Of a stretch of 64,000 bases of DNA, positions 31,221 to 41,493 are shown piece by piece. Location: the NCBI RefSeq assembly GCF_000007705.1, contig NC_005085.1, forward strand, positions 1,869,752 to 1,933,751, read 5' to 3'. Both the position numbers and the translations under genes were made by a program. The DNA comes from Chromobacterium violaceum ATCC 12472 (lineage in GTDB: Bacteria > Pseudomonadota > Gammaproteobacteria > Burkholderiales > Chromobacteriaceae). The notes beneath the pieces are model-generated. The model saw only the letters and a program-made list of their open reading frames with translations. It was not told where the DNA came from and did no database searches. Numbering within the stretch: position 1 is the stretch's first letter; every line of letters starts with the position of its first letter.

Positions 31221-31226
31221 TACTAC

Positions 31227-32819
31227 TTTCTAAGCTGCCTATCCGGCAGTGAACATGCCGAAGTTCACAGCCCCTTGGCATTGGATTTTCTAAGCTGCCT
31301 ATCCGGCAGTGAACCGATTTACAGTAGACCGGTGGACCTGGAGGTGTTTCTAAGCTGCCTATCCGGCAGTGAACCTCACGCTCCTTGGGCGTCACCCATA
31401 ATTTCATTTTCTAAGCTGCCTATCCGGCAGTGAACGGCCAGAAATGGCCTGTTTCCATTTTGGAGATTTTCTAAGCTGCCTATCCGGCAGTGAACGCGCA
31501 GCAAACAACGGGACCAATTACGGCGGTTTTCTAAGCTGCCTATCCGGCAGTGAACGCTGCAGCGCTTGCTGCCGCGCGGCCGAGTGTTTTCTAAGCTGCC
31601 TATCCGGCAGTGAACCTGACGCTTGGATGGCTTACCTGCGACCTGTATTTCTAAGCTGCCTATCCGGCAGTGAACGTCATCGACCGTGCATTGCCTGTGA
31701 TGGTTCCGTTTCTAAGCTGCCTATCCGGCAGTGAACTGGGGCTTTCGAGTGGGTTTTGCTCTCCAGGTTTTCTAAGCTGCCTATCCGGCAGTGAACAGAT
31801 TGATTGTTTTGCTGCCGGTATTGGCATTTTTCTAAGCTGCCTATCCGGCAGTGAACTCTGGGTTCATGAAATGGCCAGGTTTCAGGTATTTCTAAGCTGC
31901 CTATCCGGCAGTGAACGTTTTCGAGCGAGAGCGAGCGCGGGCTGACCTTTTCTAAGCTGCCTATCCGGCAGTGAACTCGGTGTGACGTCTATATGGGTGT
32001 CTGGGTGTTTTCTAAGCTGCCTATCCGGCAGTGAACCCGTAGTAGTTGGGTTTGCCCAGCGCGCTGGATTTCTAAGCTGCCTATCCGGCAGTGAACTGCT
32101 GTGATCGACACCGAACTCACCTGGGCGATTTCTAAGCTGCCTATCCGGCAGTGAACATTCAACAGCCGCAGCAGGGTTGAATTGCGCATTTCTAAGCTGC
32201 CTATCCGGCAGTGAACGAGTCAGCATTACGCTCAATGGCGGTTCGGGCTTTCTAAGCTGCCTATCCGGCAGTGAACTTGAACATCACGTATGCGTGGCGT
32301 CTTGGACATTTCTAAGCTGCCTATCCGGCAGTGAACGCGAAGGGGCGCGTCACGGCAGGGCGGCAGATTTTCTAAGCTGCCTATCCGGCAGTGAACTGAA
32401 ACCGATGCCGCCTTGAGGATGCGGTGCTTTTCTAAGCTGCCTATCCGGCAGTGAACGGGTTTGCCAGCTACGGCGATCCGGACGGATGTTTCTAAGCTGC
32501 CTATCCGGCAGTGAACCGATGCCGGACACCGTCGTGACGCCCCCGGTCTTTCTAAGCTGCCTATCCGGCAGTGAACCCGTCGCGTTGGCGATGCTCTGCA
32601 CCGATGACTTTTCTAAGCTGCCTATCCGGCAGTGAACCCGGCCAGCGCGAACACCGCGCCCCAGCAGTATTTCTAAGCTGCCTATCCGGCAGTGAACCTC
32701 CTACCTGATCCAGGCGACCTACCAAGATCATTTCTAAGCTGCCTATCCGGCAGTGAACTTTTGTCCTTTCTATTCGTTGATGTGCCGTGAGTTTCTAAGC
32801 TGCCTATCCGGCAGTGAAC
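31227..32819 (-). CRISPR. Type I-F CRISPR array, 27 repeats and 26 spacers
   Basis: There are twenty-seven 28-bp repeats. On the minus (crRNA) strand each contains CACTGCCGGATAGGCAG, the Cas6f hairpin (stem CTGCC/GGCAG), followed by CTTAGAAA, the 5' handle. All copies look identical by eye, including the terminal one at 31227-31254. Repeat starts are 60 or 61 bp apart, so spacers are 32 or 33 bp; the 33-bp ones precede the repeats at 31408, 31709, 32610, 32731 and 32792. No spacer is duplicated. Transcription runs leftward from the leader next to csy4, so the newest spacers are at the 32.8-kb end. Confidence 0.99.
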
Positions 32820-32976: not shown

Positions 32977-33564
32977 CTACCAAGCCGGCAGGGCGGCGGC
33001 GGCGCTGAGGCCGTAGGCATTGAAGCTGCCCGCGGCGATGCTTGGCGCGGCCTGTTGCTCGACGAACAGCCGGAAGCATTGGCCGGTGCTGGCGCTGTCT
33101 ACGGTGAGGTAGGGCAGGTTCAGCCGCTGCGCCGTTTCGTCCGGTATCCGCCGGCGCGCTTCTTCCGCGCTGATGCCCTGGCGGCGCATCAGCCTGTCGC
33201 GCGCGCGCGCGGGGCTGCTCTTGGCCTGGCGGCGGCGCACGCTGACCGCGCTTGCGCCGGCGGGGACGGGGCGGATGTCGCCGACGATGGCGTGGTCGGC
33301 GAAGCCGCTGAGCCAACGGCGCGCCATCAGGCCATCCAGCGCCGCCGCGCTGCCATGCAGCCGCAGCGTCAGGCCCAGCGTGGGCGGCAGCGGCTTGCCG
33401 TCGTGGCTGCTCGGCGCCGGATCGTAGCCGGGAAAGCTGACGCCGATATCCTGCCTTTGCTGGGCAGCCAGCGCGCGGTGCAGCTTGGCGTACAGCGCGT
33501 TCATCAGCACCGGCGGGCCGAAATCGGCGTCCGGCAGCAGGCGGATGTCGAGGTAGTGGTCCAT
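32977..33564 (-). CDS. cas6f: Cas6f (Csy4) CRISPR RNA endoribonuclease
   Basis: This enzyme cleaves the precursor crRNA just 3' of the repeat hairpin and stays bound to it. It has 195 residues. The probable catalytic His is in the segment YAKLHRALAA (about residue 29), the position of P. aeruginosa Csy4 His29. The arginine-rich helix that docks in the hairpin major groove is VRRRQAKSSPARARDRLMRR. The C-terminal SFNAYGLS matches the family end. Its ATG shares a base with the csy3 stop (TGATG), so it is translationally coupled and last in the operon. Confidence 0.95.
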   Translation of the reverse strand: MDHYLDIRLLPDADFGPPVLMNALYAKLHRALAAQQRQDIGVSFPGYDPAPSSHDGKPLPPTLGLTLRLHGSAAALDGLMARRWLSGFADHAIVGDIRPVPAGASAVSVRRRQAKSSPARARDRLMRRQGISAEEARRRIPDETAQRLNLPYLTVDSASTGQCFRLFVEQQAAPSIAAGSFNAYGLSAAAALPAW

Positions 33565-34598
33565 CAGCCGGCCTCGCCGAAGACGCCGCCGCGTATCAGC
33601 GTGGCAATGACGAAGTGCTGTTGCTCCAGGGGCGGGGCTTCGTCTTTCAGCACCCAGTTGTCCAGGAGGTTATAGAAGTCTTGCTTCTGCTTGGGTTGCC
33701 GGTAGGCTTTGCCCTGGGTGGTGACCGAGCCGTAGGGTTCGATGGCGATGGGGCCGTTGTCGTCGGCTTCGGGATACCAGGTGTCTATGGTGCGGATGGC
33801 GTTGCCTATCTTCTGCGAGTGGATGGCGGCGATATCGCCGTCTTTCTGCTTCACCGCGTACAGGGTTTTGCTCTTGTCGCCGCGCTGGCGGTCCAGAATC
33901 AACTCTTGCGACGGGAACACTTCCTGGCCGGCGCCGATGCGGACGAAGGCGGTGACGCGCAGCAGCACATGCTGCTCGCCATTCAGGCCTGCTGCGATCA
34001 GCTTGGCCACCGCGTCCAGATCACTGGCGGCCTGTCCGGAGGCGGCGAAGTCGCGCAGGCGGAGAGCCTGCGCGTCGAAGGTCCAGCCAGCTTGCTCCTG
34101 GCCATCCGCCAACCGCTGAATCCGCACTTCCACCTGTTCCGCGCCGACGCGGTTGCGCCACAGGAAGCGGCCATTGGCCAGATTGTGAGCGTAGCGGCGC
34201 GCCAGTTCGCCAAAGCCGATATCCCGGGCATAAGCGCTGACGGTGACCAGCAGCTTGGCGCGGTAGGCGGCGCTGTTGCAGGCGGACGGCGCGCCGGCGC
34301 CGGCCAGCACGCGCAGGGTGAAGCTGGCTTTCAGCGTGTCGGCGTCGTGCGGCAGCGCGGCCACGTCCACTGTCTGCAGGTTGGGGCTTTCGATGGCGGC
34401 GTCCAGCTTGGCCGGGTCCTGGTCTTTGGTTTTCAGGCGGTTGGAGATGGTGCCGCGCACCGATTTTTCCTGAATGGCGATGTGCGGCCAGGTCTGGCTG
34501 GCGTCGCGGGCATCCCAGTTTCCGGCGTAGAACAAGGCGTCGGACGGATCCAGCTTGCGTTCGAAGGCGAGGACGGACGGATTTTCCAGCTTGCTCAT
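33564..34598 (-). CDS. cas7f: Cas7f (Csy3) backbone subunit of the Csy complex
   Basis: This subunit polymerises along the crRNA spacer to form the backbone of the type I-F surveillance complex. It has 344 residues. It opens with [20 protein letters not shown] and holds the family blocks [11 protein letters not shown] and [19 protein letters not shown], and ends near the [13 protein letters not shown] segment. The length is normal (P. aeruginosa 342). The ATG overlaps the csy2 stop by four bases (ATGA). Confidence 0.96.
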
Positions 34599-35593
34599 GC
34601 TTCAACTCCCAAATCGTTTTGAGTGGAGGGGGAGGGGGGTTGGTAATCGTTGCGGCAGCGGTAGACGCCAAGTTCGGCATCGTAGGCGGGGTACCACAGC
34701 AGATCGGCGGCATCCTGCAGGCGGTGCGGGCTGATCCATTCGCCCAGCGAGTACAGGCTTTCCACAAAGCGGAACGGCGCGGCGGCGTCTCGCGCGTTGG
34801 CCACGCTGCCGGCAGGGTAAAGTTCGGAGAGCGCGCCATAGCCCACAGGGATGGGCACGATCCAGCCTTCGCCCTGCTGGCGCGAGTGCCGCCAGATGGT
34901 TTGGCCGCCATCGCCGGCTTCCGGCCAGTGGTTGAGGCGGGATTTGTCCAGCCAGGCGTCCAGCAGCGTGGCGCCGGGCGCTGTCTCGCGCAGCCTGGCA
35001 TGGTGGCCGCTCAGCAGGTCGTCGCGGGCCACCAGCGCAAAGCCGGGCAGCCAGCGGCGGCGCAGGGCGCGGAATCGCGCGGCGCGTTCGTCCTCGCCTT
35101 CCGGCAGGGTGATCAATTGCGGCTTGGGCGCGTAATGGCCGGCGGGGGGCGGAATCAGCGTGCCGCCCGCCACGCGCATGGTTTCCAGCGCGCGGCTGAT
35201 TGCGGCGGCTCGCTCCGCCAGCGCGTCGTCGTTTTGCGCCAGCGCGTTGCCGCTTACGCCGAAGACCAGGGTGAGGTCGAGGTGGATGCGTCCTTCCTCG
35301 ACGATGGCGGCCGTGCCGCCATCCTTGTCCACCGGATTGCGGCTGAGATTGAAGCGCTGGATGTAGTCGCCGTTGGTGTGGGCCTGGTAGCCGTGGCAGA
35401 TGACGCCGACGCCGTGGAATGCCAGCTCGCTGTCCGCGCCCAGCTTGCGCTCCAGCGCCGTCATCAGGCCGGTGAAGGCCGACAACGCGGGAAAGCCCCA
35501 GGTGTGCGGGCTGGAGAGGGCGTTGGCGTTCTGCACGCGCAGCCGGGGCAGAATCAGCAGGCCTTGGGCGAGAGAGCGGGGATTAATCGGCAT
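34595..35593 (-). CDS. cas5f: Cas5f (Csy2) subunit
   Basis: This subunit caps the 5' handle of the crRNA together with Csy1. It has 332 residues, the normal family length. It begins with [20 protein letters not shown], followed by the family motif [20 protein letters not shown], and has the [13 protein letters not shown] segment in the middle. Its 5' end overlaps csy1 by 11 bases and its 3' end overlaps csy3 by four, so the three are tightly coupled. Confidence 0.95.
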
Positions 35594-36992
35594 TTTGGCC
35601 TCCCGGATTATGTCCAGCGGGCAGCAAGCGGGTGTTTTGCTCGCGCAGCTTATTGTCCTGCTGGCGCTGCCAGTCGATGTCGTGCGCCAGCTCGCGCCGC
35701 CAGTGGTGGAATTCCGCCTCCGCCAACTGCAGCCTGTCGCCGCCGAGCTGGCCGTTCAGCCAGCGCGCGAAGCTTTCCGTCAGTTGCCGCGGCCAGTCCT
35801 GAAACTGGAAATGCCGGTTGAAGTCTTCATCGCTGTCGGCGCGGCGCGGGTCCAGCCAGCACTGCTCCTCCAGCGGCAGCCGGCATTCGCTGTCGGCTGT
35901 CCAGCCGCGCGGCAGCTGGTTGGCGTAGGCCGCGCCGAATTGCAGCAGTTCCTCGAAAATCTGTTCCAGATAAGCGTCGCGGCGATTGCGGACATGCCTG
36001 TTGCCGGGCTTGGCTTGGTCCGGCGGCGTGGCTTCCGGGTTGAGCTTGGCCAGCCATTGCTTCAGCTCGCGAATGGTTTCCCTCACCGTCTTACGGCGGC
36101 CGAAGCGGGAAAAAACGCTGTCGAGGCGATAGAGCGGGCGCAGGTCGCTGTTGTCCCACAGCGGCGGCAGCGAGGCCAGCAAGTAGCTGCTGCCCTTGCG
36201 TTCGCTGTTGAGCTGGGAAATGTTCTGCGGCTTGGTGCCGCCTTTCTTCTCCTCCGCCAGCAGCGGGTAGTCGCTGTAGCCGCGCGGGTGGTCGACGCGG
36301 TCGCGCCGCGCCTGCCGCGCCGCCTTGGCTTCCTCGCCGAAACGGTCCCGCTGGATGCGCTGGTACAGCCAGTGCGACAGCGAGCTGGAGTAGAGCGGGG
36401 CGAGCAGATGGTAGTGGCTGTCGTCGTGCGGGTTGGCTGGAAGGCCGGACTCGGGGGGAACCGGCCAGTAGATCTGCTTGGCGCGGGTGTGGCTGGCCGG
36501 GCCGCCGCTGGGTTCGGCGATGGCGCAGAAGGCGTCGCGCCAGGCGGCGGCTTGCTCCGCGTCGTCGCTCAGCGCCGCCAGCAGGTCCGGATCGCCGGCG
36601 CGCAGCAGCGCCAGCAGGGTGTGTCCTTCGTGTTCCAGCTTCAGGAATTTGTAGACGTCCAGCGCGGCGGCATTGCCCACCACATCGCTGGCGGCGGAAG
36701 CCAGGTGGTGGCTGCCCGCCTCTGGCCGGGGCGGCAGCGATTCCGGCGTCACGAACAGGCTGCTGCCGCGCGCATCCGGATGGCTGGCCTTGACCGGGTG
36801 GGTGACCAGCTGCAGCTGGCCGGCGCGGCGGGCGGCATCGGCCAGCCAGGCTTGCGGCCGGTATTGCGCGCGCAGCTCGGCGCGTTTGGGATCGTCGTCG
36901 GCCAGCTTGTCCAGCTTGTCGGAGAGGCGTTGCTGGATGAAGTCCTGAATAAGGGTTTGTAGTCCCCTTGCTCGTGGATTGTGCTCGTTCAT
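35583..36992 (-). CDS. cas8f: Cas8f (Csy1) large subunit
   Basis: This is the large subunit of the type I-F complex. With Csy2 it recognises the double-stranded CC PAM and, by rearranging, recruits Cas2/3. It has 469 residues using the ATG at 36992, preceded by GGTGGGGGA; a GTG three codons upstream (37001) is possible. The N-terminus IQDFIQQRLSDKLDKL and the C-terminal EFHHWRRELAHDIDWQRQQD are typical. It begins a separate transcription unit from cas1-cas3, because 215 bases of non-coding sequence with promoter-like elements lie upstream. Confidence 0.95.
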   Translation of the reverse strand: MNEHNPRARGLQTLIQDFIQQRLSDKLDKLADDDPKRAELRAQYRPQAWLADAARRAGQLQLVTHPVKASHPDARGSSLFVTPESLPPRPEAGSHHLASAASDVVGNAAALDVYKFLKLEHEGHTLLALLRAGDPDLLAALSDDAEQAAAWRDAFCAIAEPSGGPASHTRAKQIYWPVPPESGLPANPHDDSHYHLLAPLYSSSLSHWLYQRIQRDRFGEEAKAARQARRDRVDHPRGYSDYPLLAEEKKGGTKPQNISQLNSERKGSSYLLASLPPLWDNSDLRPLYRLDSVFSRFGRRKTVRETIRELKQWLAKLNPEATPPDQAKPGNRHVRNRRDAYLEQIFEELLQFGAAYANQLPRGWTADSECRLPLEEQCWLDPRRADSDEDFNRHFQFQDWPRQLTESFARWLNGQLGGDRLQLAEAEFHHWRRELAHDIDWQRQQDNKLREQNTRLLPAGHNPGGQNAD

Positions 36993-37023
36993 GTCCCCCA
37001 CCTGTCAAAAGTTTGCGCGGACA

Positions 37024-37064
37024 TGCCAATCAATTTGTCATCCGGAATAAATAGTTGATTGGCA
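37024..37064 (-). repeat. Inverted repeat in the csy1 5' leader
   Basis: TGCCAATCAA (37024-37033) and TTGATTGGCA (37055-37064) are perfect 10-bp complements around a 21-base loop. If the promoter below is right, this hairpin lies in the untranslated leader of csy mRNA, just downstream of the predicted start. It could also be a DNA operator. Confidence 0.5.
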
Positions 37065-37074
37065 AGCTTTTTGC

Positions 37075-37103
37075 ATGTTAAAACTCATTTGGCATTTTAT
37101 CAA
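37075..37103 (-). promoter_or_regulatory. Candidate promoter of the csy operon
   Basis: On the minus strand a -35 TTGATA (37103-37098) and a -10 TAACAT (37080-37075) are 17 bases apart. Transcription would begin near 37068, about 75 bases before csy1. On the opposite strand TTGCAT (37071-37076) and TTTTAT (37095-37100), 18 bases apart, could form a divergent promoter for the repeat-derived RNA described in the next entry. Both are four- or five-of-six matches only. Confidence 0.45.
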
Positions 37104-37202
37104 CCAGAGAAATATGAAACTGTCGGATAGGCAGCTAAGCAAAGAGAGATATGTAGTCACTGCCGGACAGGCAGCCGCGGCCAAGCATTCCTGCTTGGCC
37201 GC
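37104..37202 (+). ncRNA. Candidate cas-regulating mini-CRISPR (two degenerate repeats, 12-nt spacer)
   Basis: Two repeat-like units lie in the cas3-csy1 gap, opposite in orientation to the array. Unit 1 (37115-37142) matches the repeat at 21 of 28 positions: hairpin CTGTC-GGATA-GGCAG, handle CTAAGCAA. Unit 2 (37155-37182) matches at 19 of 28 with a perfect hairpin but no handle. Between them is a 12-nt spacer, AGAGAGATATGT. At 37106 the sequence AGAGAAATATGA, directly preceded by CC (the I-F PAM), matches that spacer except at positions 6 and 12, the bases flipped out in type I R-loops. The target abuts the candidate csy -35 box. An 11-bp hairpin (37177-37202) follows. A 40-bp tandem duplication would also explain the match. 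Confidence 0.55.
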
Positions 37203-37207
37203 TCCAT

Positions 37208-40200
37208 TCACACCTTGCAGAACCCCAGCGCAGGGTGAAAGCGCCAGCCCTGGTGATGGTTCTGGTCAAACGGCAGCGACACGCAGCCGAAACGCCGCGC
37301 GCAGTCGGCCAGCGGCAGCTCAAGCTCCGCGGCCAGCCGTTCCAGTTCATTGAGGTAGCTCTCGTTGCTCCAGGGCGAGATGCCGTCCGCGCGGAACAGC
37401 GCCTCGTCGCTTATCCGATGCATCAGGTAATCGCTGGGCCGTTCGTTTTTCTGGTAGCGCTTGTCTCCTTCCGCCAGCCAGACCAAGTTGAAATCGTCCT
37501 CTTCCTCATTGGGCAGCAGCATCATTTCGCGCTCTTCCCGGTTTTGGCTGTCGCGGAAGGGTTGGCGGCGCAGCAGGCCGGCATGCAGCATCGCGTGTTT
37601 GATTTGCCAGCAGCTGGCGGCGCATAGCCTGGCCTGGGCGTCTTGTGGCCTGTCGCCGTTGAGCTCGGCGTTCAGCCGAACATGTTCCAGATCGGCCAGG
37701 CGGGTCTTGGGCTGGAGCGCGGCGCTCGGCAGCAGCCGCGGGCGGGCGTCCGGATGGCGGTATTCGTCCTCGCGCAGCAGCTGCGCCAGGTCGTGGCTGT
37801 CCAGCCGGTATTCCCTTTCGGTTTCGAAGCCGGGCCGGAGATAGGCTGCCTTGTCCGGTTCCAGCCAGCTCTTGATATTCTGTTGCAGGATCAAAAGGTT
37901 GAGCGGCGCGTAGGGTTCGGTCCAATGCCGCCGGACCCGGCCGGTCAGTTGAATCAGCGAACGCATGGATGAGGGCTCGGCTATCGCCCATGAATAGCAG
38001 TGGTCTCTTCCCACCTCGCTGACCGGCGACGACAGCGCGATGAACAGCTGGTCCGCAGCCGGGTTGGCGTCCAGGCGCTGGCGGATGTCGGGGAGCCGGA
38101 ACAGCGCTTGCCTGTCGTGGCGGGACAGCGCGGCGTCCAGCCGCCGCTCAATGGCGGAGCGCAGGAGCAGCGGGTATTGCGCGTGGTAGACGCAGAGGTG
38201 GATCTGCACGCCATCCAGCCGGCCCAGCGCGTAGAACGACTGGGCCAGTTGGTAGAGCTTGTCGATGTTGGCGATACGGATCAGCCCGACGCTGACGCGC
38301 TTGCCGCTGGCCGGATCGGTTTCCGCATTCAGCCGGTGCAGGCGCAGCGCGCCCTCGCGCAGGCGTTCGGCCAGCGCCGGGTAGAAGCTGGCGTTGCCAT
38401 GCCGCGGCAGGCCGGACAGGGGCAGCAGTTCGGCGGCGCGGCGCGGCGGCTGTTTGGCCAGCCATTGCGCGCGCGGCCGGGCGAAATCCAGATGGGCGGC
38501 GGCAAAGGCGGCGGCCTCGGCGCAATCGGCGGCGCGGGCGTCGTTTTCGTCCACCCACAGGCAGCAGACGTTCAGCGGCAAGCCGGGTTGGCCGCGGTTG
38601 GCCTGGTAGTGGCGGCGGCCGGCCAGGTAGGCGTCGAACAGGCAGCTCACCAGCGCCGGCGGCAGCGTGGCGGAGGACAACAGCACGCGGCTGCCCAACA
38701 GGCCGGCCCAATGAACCAGACGCGTCAGCGCGGGTAGATCTTCCATCGAGTAGTCGTCTATTTCGTCCAGCACGATGTCGGAGCTCATCAAGCGCAGCAT
38801 TGGCGCGATCTGCCGCCCGCCGCGCGCGCTTTCCGTGGCCGGCGTCAGATGATCGACAGTACAAACCAGGACCGGCGCCGCCAGCAGCGCGTTGAAGCGC
38901 GGATCGTGGCTGAGCTTTTGCAGCAGCGGATGGTCGGGATTGCCGTCGAAGCGGATATGGCTATCCTCGTCCAGCAGCGCTTGGCTGGATTCCGAACCGC
39001 TTTGCTCCGCCGCATTCGCATAGTGCTCGAACAGTTCGCGGCTGGCCGCGCCGCCGACGCGTATGGCGAGGTCGCCGTCATCCAGCCGCAGGCGGTCGCG
39101 CAGCGCGAGGCCGGTTTGCAGCGTCAGCGCGCGCAGGCCCAGCGCATAGGCGCAGCGCAAGCCGGCGGCAGGGTTGGCCAGCGCGTAGAGCAGGCGGGCA
39201 TTGGCAAGGGTTTTGCCGCAGCCGGTGGAGGCCAGGTTGACGATGAAGGCGCCGTGGGCGGCGGCCTTGTCGCGGATGCCCGCCGCCAGATCGAATGCCT
39301 TGTCCTGCCAGCGGAAACGAGGATCGGCGCTGCGTTGCCGCAGCGCCTTGTGCATCCCCAGCGCGGGCAGTTCGCGCGCGAGGCCGGGCAGGGCGCGGGC
39401 AGCGGCCAAAGCGTGGCGGGCCACGCCTGTCAGGTGTTCGGGCAGCGTTTGGTTGAAGCGGCGCTGCGGATCGTTTTTCAGCGTATTGGCGAAGGCGATG
39501 CGGTCCTCGTCTTCGCGTTGCCAGCGCTGTTTTACGGTCTGGCTGGAAAAATGGTGGTCGGCCAGCATCAGCAGCAGTCGGGAGATGTGCATCAGGTAGG
39601 CGTTGTCCAGCCATGGCGCCGGCTGGCCGGGCTGGCGCTTGAGCAGTTCGTTTGCCAGCGCCGCTGTTCTGTCGCGCCATAGCGCGTCGTCGCATGGCAG
39701 GCCGTAGGGAAAGGTCCAGTAAGTTTCGATTTCGCGGCGACCTGCCTCCGACAAGGGTTGGTTCCAGCCGGCATCCAGCTCGGCCAGACCGCTTTGCATG
39801 CGCAGGGCGGTGATGTCGCCGGCCTGTTGCGGCAGCCTGTGATGGCTGAGCACCAGCCAGCAGAGCGCTGCGGCCAGCGGCGGCAGCGCGCCGGGAGCGA
39901 ACGGTTTGGCATGGCGGGCATCCGCGTCCAGGCCGTCGCGCAGCTTGCGCGCCTTCAGCCGCTTGATCCAGCTTGCGCCGTCGATCTTTGCCGGATCCTG
40001 CAACCGTGACAACCAGCCGGCATCGTCGTCGTCGCCTACAAACGCCTGAAACAGCCGCAGCGATACCCATTCATGGCGATAGAGGTTGGCCCCGGCCGGG
40101 CCATTTGGACGCAGCCGGACCTGGAATGCCGAGCAGGCCTTGCCCAGATCGTGCAGCAGCGCAGCCAGGCCGGAGATCAGACGGATGTCCTCGCCGCTGA

Positions 40201-40519
40201 GCCAGTCGTTCTCGTCATCGGCCCGCAGCACATCGCGCTGGGTGGCGTTGGTGGGCACCGCGCCTTGGAGATTGAAGCGGCGGGCGTCGCCGACTATCCA
40301 CAACAGCTCGCTGTGGTCGCGTCCTCGTATCCAGTGGCAGGCGACGGAGGTGTTCTTGCGCGCGGTCTTGCGCAGCAGGCGGCGCAGCGTGTCCAGTCCA
40401 GCCTGAGTGATGGGCGTTTGCCAGACGCGGTCGCCGCGGCGCTCGGCGAACTGGTCCAGGATGCGGCGGGTTTCAGTCAGCGCCCGCTTGTCGCATTGCG
40501 AGATCAGCAGGATGTTCAT
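37208..40519 (-). CDS. cas3: Cas2-Cas3 fusion nuclease-helicase, type I-F
   Basis: This fusion degrades DNA marked by the Csy complex and, through its Cas2 part, joins Cas1 in spacer acquisition. It has 1103 residues. Residues 1-95 form a Cas2 domain (NILLISQCDKRALTETRRIL). The HD nuclease has LLHDLGK (His123, Asp124). The helicase shows Walker A STGCGKT (about 430), DEID (about 583), SSATLPP (about 617) and QLTGRVRRH (about 858). The ATG at 40519 overlaps the cas1 stop by four bases, replacing a longer frame to 40606. The gene ends 215 bases before csy1. Confidence 0.97.
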   Translation of the reverse strand: MNILLISQCDKRALTETRRILDQFAERRGDRVWQTPITQAGLDTLRRLLRKTARKNTSVACHWIRGRDHSELLWIVGDARRFNLQGAVPTNATQRDVLRADDENDWLSGEDIRLISGLAALLHDLGKACSAFQVRLRPNGPAGANLYRHEWVSLRLFQAFVGDDDDAGWLSRLQDPAKIDGASWIKRLKARKLRDGLDADARHAKPFAPGALPPLAAALCWLVLSHHRLPQQAGDITALRMQSGLAELDAGWNQPLSEAGRREIETYWTFPYGLPCDDALWRDRTAALANELLKRQPGQPAPWLDNAYLMHISRLLLMLADHHFSSQTVKQRWQREDEDRIAFANTLKNDPQRRFNQTLPEHLTGVARHALAAARALPGLARELPALGMHKALRQRSADPRFRWQDKAFDLAAGIRDKAAAHGAFIVNLASTGCGKTLANARLLYALANPAAGLRCAYALGLRALTLQTGLALRDRLRLDDGDLAIRVGGAASRELFEHYANAAEQSGSESSQALLDEDSHIRFDGNPDHPLLQKLSHDPRFNALLAAPVLVCTVDHLTPATESARGGRQIAPMLRLMSSDIVLDEIDDYSMEDLPALTRLVHWAGLLGSRVLLSSATLPPALVSCLFDAYLAGRRHYQANRGQPGLPLNVCCLWVDENDARAADCAEAAAFAAAHLDFARPRAQWLAKQPPRRAAELLPLSGLPRHGNASFYPALAERLREGALRLHRLNAETDPASGKRVSVGLIRIANIDKLYQLAQSFYALGRLDGVQIHLCVYHAQYPLLLRSAIERRLDAALSRHDRQALFRLPDIRQRLDANPAADQLFIALSSPVSEVGRDHCYSWAIAEPSSMRSLIQLTGRVRRHWTEPYAPLNLLILQQNIKSWLEPDKAAYLRPGFETEREYRLDSHDLAQLLREDEYRHPDARPRLLPSAALQPKTRLADLEHVRLNAELNGDRPQDAQARLCAASCWQIKHAMLHAGLLRRQPFRDSQNREEREMMLLPNEEEDDFNLVWLAEGDKRYQKNERPSDYLMHRISDEALFRADGISPWSNESYLNELERLAAELELPLADCARRFGCVSLPFDQNHHQGWRFHPALGFCKV

Positions 40520-41493
40520 CCATCCCGCCCCAGTTGCTCCGCGATGCGCTGAAGCTGATCGATCATGAAGTCCAGCGCCTCGCCGCGCGCCAGCTGTTCG
40601 ATGCATTGTTGGCGGAAGGTTTGTTCGTCGTCGCCCTTCATCGCGCTGACGAAGGCTTGCGGCAGGATGGCTGCGTCTTTGACCAAGTCCGCGGCGTCGA
40701 ACACCAGGCCGCCGCGGCGGGTTTTGCCGTGCAGGATAGCCAGGCTGTGCGGCAACCCCAACACCCAGGCGGCGGTGGCGCCGAGGCCGTAGGCCAGGTA
40801 GTTGCCGTGGTCCAGAAAACGGTTGGCTGGATCCACGCCGCCGCCGCGCTTGGCGCGCGTGAATTCGCCATAAGCGGTGGCTTGCGCCGCCAGCCGGAAC
40901 AGCTGTTTGGACAAGCGGGCCTCTTCCGTCAGCAGGGCGGTATGGTCCGGCGCGCGCTCCAGCGAGGCGAGGCTGGCGTCGAGCAGCTGTGTCAGCCGGG
41001 AGGGTTCGATTTCAAAGCCGGCCTCGCGCAACTGGCGGTTGTCCAGCCATTGCGCGCGGATGCGGGCAAGCCGCGCTTGCTGCAATTGTTTGGCGGCTTG
41101 CAGCCGTTTGTCGTCGTCGAACCAGAAGCGAGCCCACCATTGAAGGTATTCGGTGGGGCGGTATTCGCTTTGCGGCGACTGCCAGGCCACTTCCATTTCT
41201 ACTTCTCCGGCGCTGAACAGCGGCGTGCCGCCTCCGCCGCAGAATCCCACCATCACGCCGGCCTTGGCCAGTTCGCGCATCGCCGCCTGGGTAACGGAGG
41301 TGCCGGTGCCCAGCAACAGGGTGGTGGTGTTGGCGATGGGAATGTTCCAATACAGCGATTGCTTGCCGGCATCGGTGACGTATTCGACGCGGCCGCCGTT
41401 GACCAGCACCCGGCAGTGTTCCAGGTAGTAGAGGTTGGCTCGCTTGGAGTGAAGGATGGTTTTCAGATCGCCAGGGGTGAATGGCTCGCTCAT
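40516..41493 (-). CDS. cas1: Cas1, type I-F spacer integrase
   Basis: This is the metal-dependent integrase that inserts spacers at the leader-proximal repeat. It has 325 residues and the I-F opening LKTILHSKRANLYYLEHCRV. The C-terminal helical domain carries the metal ligands, with NYLAYGLGATAAWVLGLPHS, the conserved His in LAILHGKTRRGGLVFDAADL and the final Asp/Glu helix. It is first in the cas1-cas3 transcript and overlaps cas3. A palindrome upstream (41526-41540) may control it. Confidence 0.97.
   Translation of the reverse strand: MSEPFTPGDLKTILHSKRANLYYLEHCRVLVNGGRVEYVTDAGKQSLYWNIPIANTTTLLLGTGTSVTQAAMRELAKAGVMVGFCGGGGTPLFSAGEVEMEVAWQSPQSEYRPTEYLQWWARFWFDDDKRLQAAKQLQQARLARIRAQWLDNRQLREAGFEIEPSRLTQLLDASLASLERAPDHTALLTEEARLSKQLFRLAAQATAYGEFTRAKRGGGVDPANRFLDHGNYLAYGLGATAAWVLGLPHSLAILHGKTRRGGLVFDAADLVKDAAILPQAFVSAMKGDDEQTFRQQCIEQLARGEALDFMIDQLQRIAEQLGRDG

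Follow-up and report, generated by a model that had tools for sequence, protein, structure and literature searches.

A CreR-like mini-CRISPR in the cas3-csy1 gap of Chromobacterium violaceum as a putative autorepressor of a type I-F CRISPR-Cas system

The gap between cas3 and csy1 in the type I-F CRISPR-Cas locus of Chromobacterium violaceum ATCC 12472 harbours a degenerate mini-CRISPR which, judged from its sequence, probably (at about two chances in three) represents a working CreR autorepressor of the type I-F system. A preliminary description of this DNA had proposed a crRNA-like RNA with a PAM and a seed match, through which the effector would repress its own csy genes, and this joint reading gains strong support from the comparison with 38 other loci that carry different spacers. 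Since CC-flanked matches with mismatches at guide positions 6, 12 and 18 recur across the relatives, we consider the unit a Cre-type crRNA-like regulator and not a decaying duplication. The assignment to CreR rests on the absence of a toxin-like mini-gene in the window, since 22 of the 39 loci with a unit have one. Here, the window is the whole 64-kb stretch of DNA that was analysed, which comes from a genome of 4,751,080 bases.

Materials and methods

The csy1 gene was searched for in 150 related genomes, of which 19 carry it (the window's own included), in a scan of GTDB contigs, from which the best 80 of 377 csy1 loci were used with some overlap with the 150-genome set, and in 398 genomes of the phylum, of which 23 have csy1 and partly overlap the earlier sets. 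Pooling gave 121 csy1 loci, 106 of which differ from one another in the final 150 nt leading up to and including the csy1 start. A fixed scan of the gap upstream of csy1 searched for pairs of hairpins resembling the I-F repeat at a distance of 28-75 nt, and pairs with a score of at least 31 were accepted; mononucleotide-shuffled gaps gave a hairpin pair in 16 of 495 cases, with scores of 26-30. This cut also dropped L059, L066 and L100 (scores 29-30), each with a target at p = 0.003, as well as L114, whose repeat pair (score 29) lacks a target (p = 0.153). L015 (score 30) was detected on the wrong strand, an artefact, the loop limit of the scan skipping its first repeat (psiR1) as judged by eye; L032 is a copy of L015.

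For the target test, the best CC-flanked site in a locus's own gap, with every 6th position ignored, was compared to that of shuffled spacers. The spacer match in the own gap was also scored with all positions equal and without requiring a PAM. In L077, L085 and L097 this left two tied sites, of which sorting by flanking letters placed the CC-flanked one first; mismatch and ORF counts for these loci may use the other tie, and class counts use the target of the 6n-aware test. The csy1 tree of the 106 loci was built with FastTree and contains long branches. On it, the CreR label covers 16 rows (L059 and L066 added) and the CreTA label 24 rows (L100 and L015 added, L015 by eye).

Results

Organization of the locus

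The type I-F locus is located on the minus strand in the order cas1, cas3 (with a Cas2 domain), csy1, csy2, csy3, csy4 and array, and open frames with Pfam matches are present for Csy1-4, Cas3 and Cas1. The cas1 frame (40516-41493) matches Cas_Cas1 (E 8e-13), and the cas2-3 fusion cas3 (37208-40606) matches Cas3_I-F_Cas2 and two Cas3-like C-terminal domains, with DEAD and HD matches below the Pfam cut-offs. The effector genes are csy1 (cas8f, 35583-36992; Cas_Csy1, E 4e-148), csy2 (cas5f, 34595-35593; Cas_Csy2, E 6e-117), csy3 (cas7f, 33564-34598; Cas_Csy3, E 6e-155) and csy4 (cas6f, 32977-33564; Cas_Csy4, E 6e-61), all on the minus strand like cas1 and cas3. The main array (31226-32819, minus strand) comprises 27 in-register repeats at 60-61 nt spacing, and its repeat, GTTCACTGCCGGATAGGCAGCTTAGAAA on the minus strand, has the same orientation as the csy genes.

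Translation of csy1 likely starts with the ATG at 36992, which is preceded by AGGTGGGGG; the mechanical ORF opens with GTG at 37001. With the cas3 stop at 37208, the cas3-csy1 gap is about 210 nt long and contains the mini-CRISPR unit on the plus strand. Two hairpins lie beside this unit. One, of 10 bp (GCCAATCAA...TTGATTGGC; 37024-37064, minus strand), belongs to the leader of csy1, folds with z -2.1 and is possibly regulatory. The other, of 11 bp (37177-37202), is placed between the second repeat of the unit and the cas3 stop, where no terminator was called, and could end or protect both converging transcripts.

The mini-CRISPR unit of the window

The first repeat-like element, psiR1 (37115-37142, plus strand), agrees with the array repeat at 21 of 28 positions. 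It forms a hairpin at 37120-37134 with one U.G pair and ends with the 5' handle CTAAGCAA (37135-37142). After a 12-nt guide, psiS (37143-37154, plus strand; AGAGAGATATGT), follows psiR2 (37155-37182, plus strand), which agrees at 19 of 28 positions, keeps the left flank AGTCA and a hairpin at 37160-37174, and has lost the handle. The coordinates and counts of the preliminary description that were recomputed proved exact. Apart from the array, neither strand of the 64-kb window contains a better match to the array repeat than psiR1 and psiR2, and the next one reaches 18/28.

From I-F processing, the mature CreR is predicted to span 37135-37174 (plus strand), i.e. 40 nt made up of the 8-nt handle, the 12-nt guide and a 20-nt 3' handle, with a fold z of -1.3. 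The fold prediction contains both hairpins. The mini-CRISPR RNA 37118-37178 is no stabler than its own shuffles (z -0.41), and with the hairpin behind psiR2 included z is -3.24. An ordinary array would have near-identical repeats and spacers of about 32 nt, which the unit with its 21/28 and 19/28 repeats and a spacer of 12 nt does not. With its two repeat-like elements flanking a spacer in the cas3-csy1 gap, close to cas genes, the unit agrees with what is expected of CreR. The psiS of the window is the shortest among the 39 loci (12 nt; 13-38 nt in the others).

Target, PAM and promoters in the window

The sequence of the window has the I-F PAM CC at 37104-37105 (plus strand), directly followed by the target of the guide, AGAGAAATATGA (37106-37117, plus strand), which agrees with the spacer at 10 of 12 positions and is mismatched at 6 and 12 only. 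A candidate csy promoter (37075-37103, minus strand) with the -35 box TTGATA (37103-37098), a 17-nt spacing and the -10 box TAACAT (37080-37075) is the sole promoter-like hit in 36950-37350, where shuffles average 0.2. The position of the target with its CC and its two mismatches had been described before and was exact on recomputation; the claimed contact with the csy -35 box was confirmed as well, since TTGATA directly adjoins the CC, the csy promoter itself being predicted. A weak candidate for a creR promoter (37089-37118, plus strand; TTGGCA, 18 nt, TATGAA; 9/12) overlaps the target, and the family peak of such promoters lies 5 nt further upstream. The start of the creR transcript is uncertain, because the predicted start falls inside the psiR1 stem.

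When the gap was shuffled 20,000 times with dinucleotides preserved, CC together with the ten matches never occurred, and any 10/12 match without a PAM occurred in 139 shuffles. In the 4.75-Mb genome CC-AGAGANATATG occurs once, at the target site, and a second such site is absent. A chance origin of the guide-target match of the window is therefore unlikely. Scored over 17 positions, the match of the window (11/17) does not stand out from the swapped controls, of which 47% reach 11, since pairing is possible at 12 positions only.

Related units upstream of csy1

A unit with a pair score of at least 31 was found upstream of csy1 in 39 of the 106 distinct loci, which is not a prevalence, since the 80 GTDB loci are the best 80 of 377 matches to the csy1 family of the window. 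At this cut no unit was found in 67 of the 106, nor in the nearest csy1 relatives of the window (L003-L007). The gaps of the unit-less loci, where measured (n = 61), are shorter than 100 nt in 23 cases, but a unit is missing as well from six gaps of 228 nt and from several that are longer. The unit lies on the strand opposite to csy in 39/39 loci, and cas3 is present across the gap in 36/39; in L018, L019 and L109 it was not found in the stretch examined.

The target test gave p <= 0.01 in 36 of the 37 loci with a score of at least 29 (the window and L051, a duplicate of L018, counted; L015 and L032 left out). In L019 the 6n-aware test gave p = 0.349, yet the best match is CC-flanked and comprises 12/17 positions. 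The unchanged procedure yielded 10 pairs in the phylum set, and without copies of the window, L008 and L067, 6 of the remaining 7 loci had a target at p = 0.003, L114 being the exception.

The two repeats have decayed in a complementary manner. While psiR1 has kept the handle (0.97 of consensus) and not the left flank (0.34), psiR2 has 0.53 for the left flank versus 0.33 for the handle. The handle is better preserved in psiR1 than in psiR2 in 38/39 loci; the left flank is better in psiR2 in 26/39 and equal or better in 34/39, so that this half of the pattern is the weaker one. According to known I-F processing, the retained parts are those a mature crRNA would use, and a tandem duplication would not produce such a pattern.

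Pairing pattern across loci

With all positions scored equally and no PAM required, the best spacer match in the own gap is preceded by CC outright in 36/39 loci and as one of two ties in the remaining 3/39. Swapped spacer-gap pairs of unrelated loci have a CC-flanked best match in 81 of 1446 cases. If one locus per spacer cluster is counted (27 clusters), mismatches occur at position 6 in 22/27, at position 12 in 22/27 and at position 18 in 16/22, which adds up to 60/76 versus 36/389 at the remaining positions of 1-18; in swapped pairs the mismatch rate is 0.37 at 6 and 12 versus 0.38 elsewhere. Where spacers of the same cluster differ at pairing positions, the target shows the corresponding change in 47 of 69 cases (18 locus pairs, not independent). 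Such a pattern would be expected of guides kept in step with their target by an effector that reads five positions and skips one, and for I-F Cascade 5+1 pairing with tolerance of every 6th mismatch is described (PMC7305327). The preliminary description had proposed to compare the gap in related genomes for co-variation of spacer and target. The outcome it had named as contradicting its reading, a decaying duplication with no conserved seed or PAM, was not upheld in the related genomes, where CC and 5+1 pairing recur.

The free positions 6, 12 and 18 are not neutral. Over 111 such positions in the 39 loci, the guides have a GC content of 0.59 and the DNA targets one of 0.12; at the remaining positions of 1-17 the values are 0.32 and 0.30, respectively. 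The sixth positions look actively mispaired, with G/C in the guide and A/T in the DNA, and A/T in the target might facilitate melting of the DNA at sites that gain no pair with the RNA.

The same data bear on a plain tandem duplication, by which the target and a repeat block would have been copied once and would have no function. In the window the target does adjoin psiR1 as psiS adjoins psiR2, with a 37-bp period and 3 extra nt before the second stem. However, the two copies cease to be identical precisely where the guide begins (0/10 directly upstream of it; 2/8 in the handles), and the PAM, the pairing and the 6n pattern have survived sequence divergence between loci. A tandem copy is not involved in the other loci that were tested, as their targets are 66-170 bp away from psiS. 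We therefore reject a duplication for the family, based on the window (0/10, 2/8) and on the pattern in 39 loci, and hold it to be very improbable as an explanation of the unit, although duplication may have been the origin of the compact spacer in the window.

Self-spacers exist in CRISPR arrays, and with repeats and a spacer being present, an ordinary small array that captured self DNA by accident would offer a further explanation. Against this stand the spacer lengths of 12-38 nt, mostly far from 32, the complementary decay of the repeats, the antisense orientation to csy in 39/39 loci and the CC-flanked best match in the own gap. Spacer length, strand and pairing pattern refute an accidental self-spacer for the family, and we give it hardly any credence for the window.

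Genes behind the target

Between target and csy1, 22 of the 39 loci contain an SD-led mini-ORF (21 by script and L097 by its 6n-aware target), namely in L008, L012, L018, L019, L033, L034, L037, L038, L042, L050, L055, L063, L067, L068, L074, L075, L079, L081, L084, L088, L097 and L099. Most of these CreT-like ORFs have about 10 codons and some end in IRRV; AGA AGA, read by eye in 9/22, is a codon pair reminiscent of tRNA-sequestering CreT. L018 and L019 are the weakest cases. By their sequence, the mini-ORFs are candidate CreT toxins of Beta- and Gammaproteobacterial I-F loci. A longer small ORF of 49, 54 and 62 codons lies behind the target in L101, L104 and L110, respectively (3/39). A Pfam search with these three ORFs gave nothing above the cut-off, and they are possibly CrePA-like small-protein genes under Csy control; those of L101 and L104 have a hydrophobic segment, as seen by eye.

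Neither type of ORF was found in 14/39 loci, among them the window; there, the next gene is csy1, either immediately behind the target or separated from it by a leader of at most about 170 nt. Since a toxin-like gene is absent in these 14 loci, csy1 itself is behind the target, which would correspond to CreR-like autorepression. A promoter (8/12 consensus) with the -35 box within 8 nt of the PAM was detected in 17/39 loci (L039 and L047 unscored, as the stretch ended), and six control offsets gave 3, 5, 12, 5, 3 and 3, the 12 being the offset at which the target would cover the -35 box. L039, L047 and L080 (Halomonas, Billgrantia and Litchfieldella) have the target just before the csy1 start, and by eye a -10-like box lies within it (TATAAT in L039, TACAAT in L047 and L080), so that the guide would cover the -10 box there and not adjoin the -35 box.

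In the window, no SD-led mini-ORF was found between target and csy1, a search which a toxic RNA lacking such an ORF would escape. An 11-codon ORF (ATG 37024, minus strand), noticed by eye, overlaps the csy1 start but has no SD. A mini-CRISPR with a PAM-flanked partial target is common to CreTA and the window, where a creT under the CreA target was not found; the PAM-flanked partial complementarity of the guide beside the -35 TTGATA of the predicted csy promoter, without a toxin gene found behind the target, agrees with CreR.

The unit could nevertheless be the antitoxin half of a CreTA with an unrecognised toxin, whose target would control a toxic RNA encoded within the 113 nt that precede csy1. 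A CreT-like mini-ORF is found at the same place in 22/39 loci, the published I-F case at the cas3-csy1 position is a CreTA, and the csy1 leader of the window has its 10-bp hairpin, a hairpin being important in Acinetobacter CreT (PMC10097628). In the window, however, an SD-led mini-ORF is absent, the distance from PAM to csy1 start is 113 nt versus 176-354 nt in the CreTA-like loci, and no terminator-like site was found between the csy promoter and csy1, so that a toxin would belong to the csy mRNA. A hidden toxin appears improbable to us.

Distribution on the csy1 tree

The CreR label needs 13 changes on the csy1 tree versus a shuffled mean of 15.2, and the CreTA label 18 versus 21.9. For four states (no unit, CreTA-like, CreR-like, small protein) at least 32 changes are required versus 39.2 in the shuffled mean. 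The states of the unit are hence interspersed on the tree and somewhat clustered, with frequent turnover at one site. The window is the sole CreR-like row in its 14-row clade, and its neighbours L003 and L013 are without a unit at the cut.

Discussion

CreR has been described as a mini-CRISPR that autorepresses a cas promoter, generally without a toxin (Liu et al. 2023, Cell Host Microbe; PMC13131331, PMC12737573, PMC12948488). The subtypes named for it are I-B, I-E and V-A (PMC13131331) or Type I and V-A in general (PMC12737573). The unit of the window shares with these systems the mini-CRISPR, a guide partly complementary to a cas promoter, the lack of a detectable toxin gene and a putative autorepression; it differs from published CreR by its subtype I-F, the operon-internal csy promoter and the 12-nt guide.

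At the same position, the cas3-csy1 gap, CreTA of three Acinetobacter species was reported, with a CC PAM and a toxin RNA repressed by Csy; Csy-CreA was found to repress a promoter there, and earlier creTA modules lay around cas6 (PMC10097628). Besides subtype and position, the window has in common with the Acinetobacter modules two degenerate repeats, the divergent orientation of creA and the gene on the csy side, the CC PAM and partial pairing, for which mismatches at 6, 11 and 18 are given in Acinetobacter. In contrast, the Acinetobacter CreTA has a 20-nt guide, and its gap of about 400 bp encodes the toxic RNA under control of the target, equipped with an SD and a mini-ORF, whereas the gap of the window is about 210 bp long with csy1 next to the unit (PMC10097628). 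CreTA modules of other subtypes (PMC8501985, PMC9458426) likewise use a degenerate mini-CRISPR to guide transcriptional repression, but possess a toxin gene, unlike the window; a term search for I-F and csy1 in PMC8501985 found no mention. Racr RNA anti-CRISPRs also are repeat-like RNAs outside an array. These are virus-encoded solitary repeats that inhibit CRISPR-Cas, in contrast to the two repeats, host locus and self target of the window (PMC10651486).

The preliminary description knew of no such RNA at this position of a type I-F locus. This does not hold for CreTA, which is in print there for Acinetobacter (PMC10097628). With respect to I-F CreR the statement stands for the open-access literature searched, in which none was found, though one may still be in print. 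As far as the sources go, the window contains a probable CreR in a subtype apparently new for CreR, with the shortest guide of the 39 loci.

From these data and the cited work we infer transcription, processing, loading, repression and its relief as follows. A short plus-strand transcript would arise from the cas3-csy1 gap, and Cas6f (Csy4) would cut psiR1 to give the 5' handle CTAAGCAA and psiR2 to give the 3' hairpin. The product, a crRNA-like RNA of about 40 nt with a 12-nt guide, would be loaded into the Csy complex. Csy-CreR would then bind the CC-flanked site 37104-37117 by pairing at positions 1-5 and 7-11, right against the csy -35 box. As the guide is far too short for Cas2/3, RNA polymerase would be blocked without cutting, and Csy1-4 would reduce their own synthesis. 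If crRNAs compete for the Csy proteins or anti-CRISPRs inactivate them, the csy promoter would be freed. Since the likely creR promoter overlaps the target site, CreR may limit itself, too. The csy1 gene may also be read from a cas1-cas3 transcript, which CreR at its target need not stop.

That a short guide avoids recruitment of Cas2/3 is directly supported by truncated I-F1 complexes, in which R-loops form and Cas2/3 is not triggered (PMC7296934), and for type I-B repression without interference was reported with 24-bp spacers (PMC10989794). The main doubt about CreR concerns the guide as well, as its predicted 12 nt are fewer than those of guides shown to work in the studies cited. In the I-F1 system of Aggregatibacter, spacers cut by at least 18 nt (at most 14 nt left) brought phage infection to the non-targeting level, and affinity fell with length (PMC7296934); Acinetobacter CreA requires pairs 13-17 (PMC10097628). 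The weak creR promoter, the fold of the mini-CRISPR at shuffle level and the nearest relatives without a unit also count against CreR.

A decayed Cre element has to be considered, i.e. a once functional CreTA or CreR of which only a remnant is left, with the spacer shortened to 12 nt and repression lost. The failure of guides of at most 14 nt in vivo in one I-F1 system (PMC7296934) would agree with this, as would the length of psiS at the lower end of the family. Likewise, the nearest relatives lost or never had the unit, and the tree needs many gains and losses. However, the window has preserved the PAM, the two stems, all ten positions that pair and the greater part of the handle, although decay should strike the pairing positions as fast as positions 6 and 12. 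Guides of 13 nt (L101, L109), 15 nt (L110) and 16 nt (L048, L070) elsewhere in the family are perfectly paired at 1-5 and 7-11. Decay is unlikely in our view, yet a serious alternative, and we prefer a functional CreR.

For the family as a whole, we tentatively propose, at somewhat less than even odds, that the cas3-csy1 gap of I-F loci serves as a standing regulatory socket, in which one crRNA-like RNA, held in register with a nearby promoter by a code of five paired positions and one free position, repeatedly swapped control among a toxic RNA (CreTA), a gene for a small protein (CrePA-like) and the csy genes (CreR), and that 12 nt, i.e. two pentamers, may suffice for self-throttling.

Research on Cascade structure and on anti-CRISPRs makes wide use of type I-F systems as models. 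If CreR is functional in the window, I-F systems regulate their own effector by a self-made guide, and csy expression would rise when anti-CRISPRs or surplus crRNAs occupy the Csy proteins. The family would further provide an evolutionary record of which guide positions are important in vivo, amounting to a mutagenesis of the I-F R-loop by nature that leaves positions 6, 12 and 18 free, and its natural guides of 12-38 nt offer material for testing the minimum length for repression. Over evolution, the loci seemingly switch between addiction by a toxin and autoregulation.
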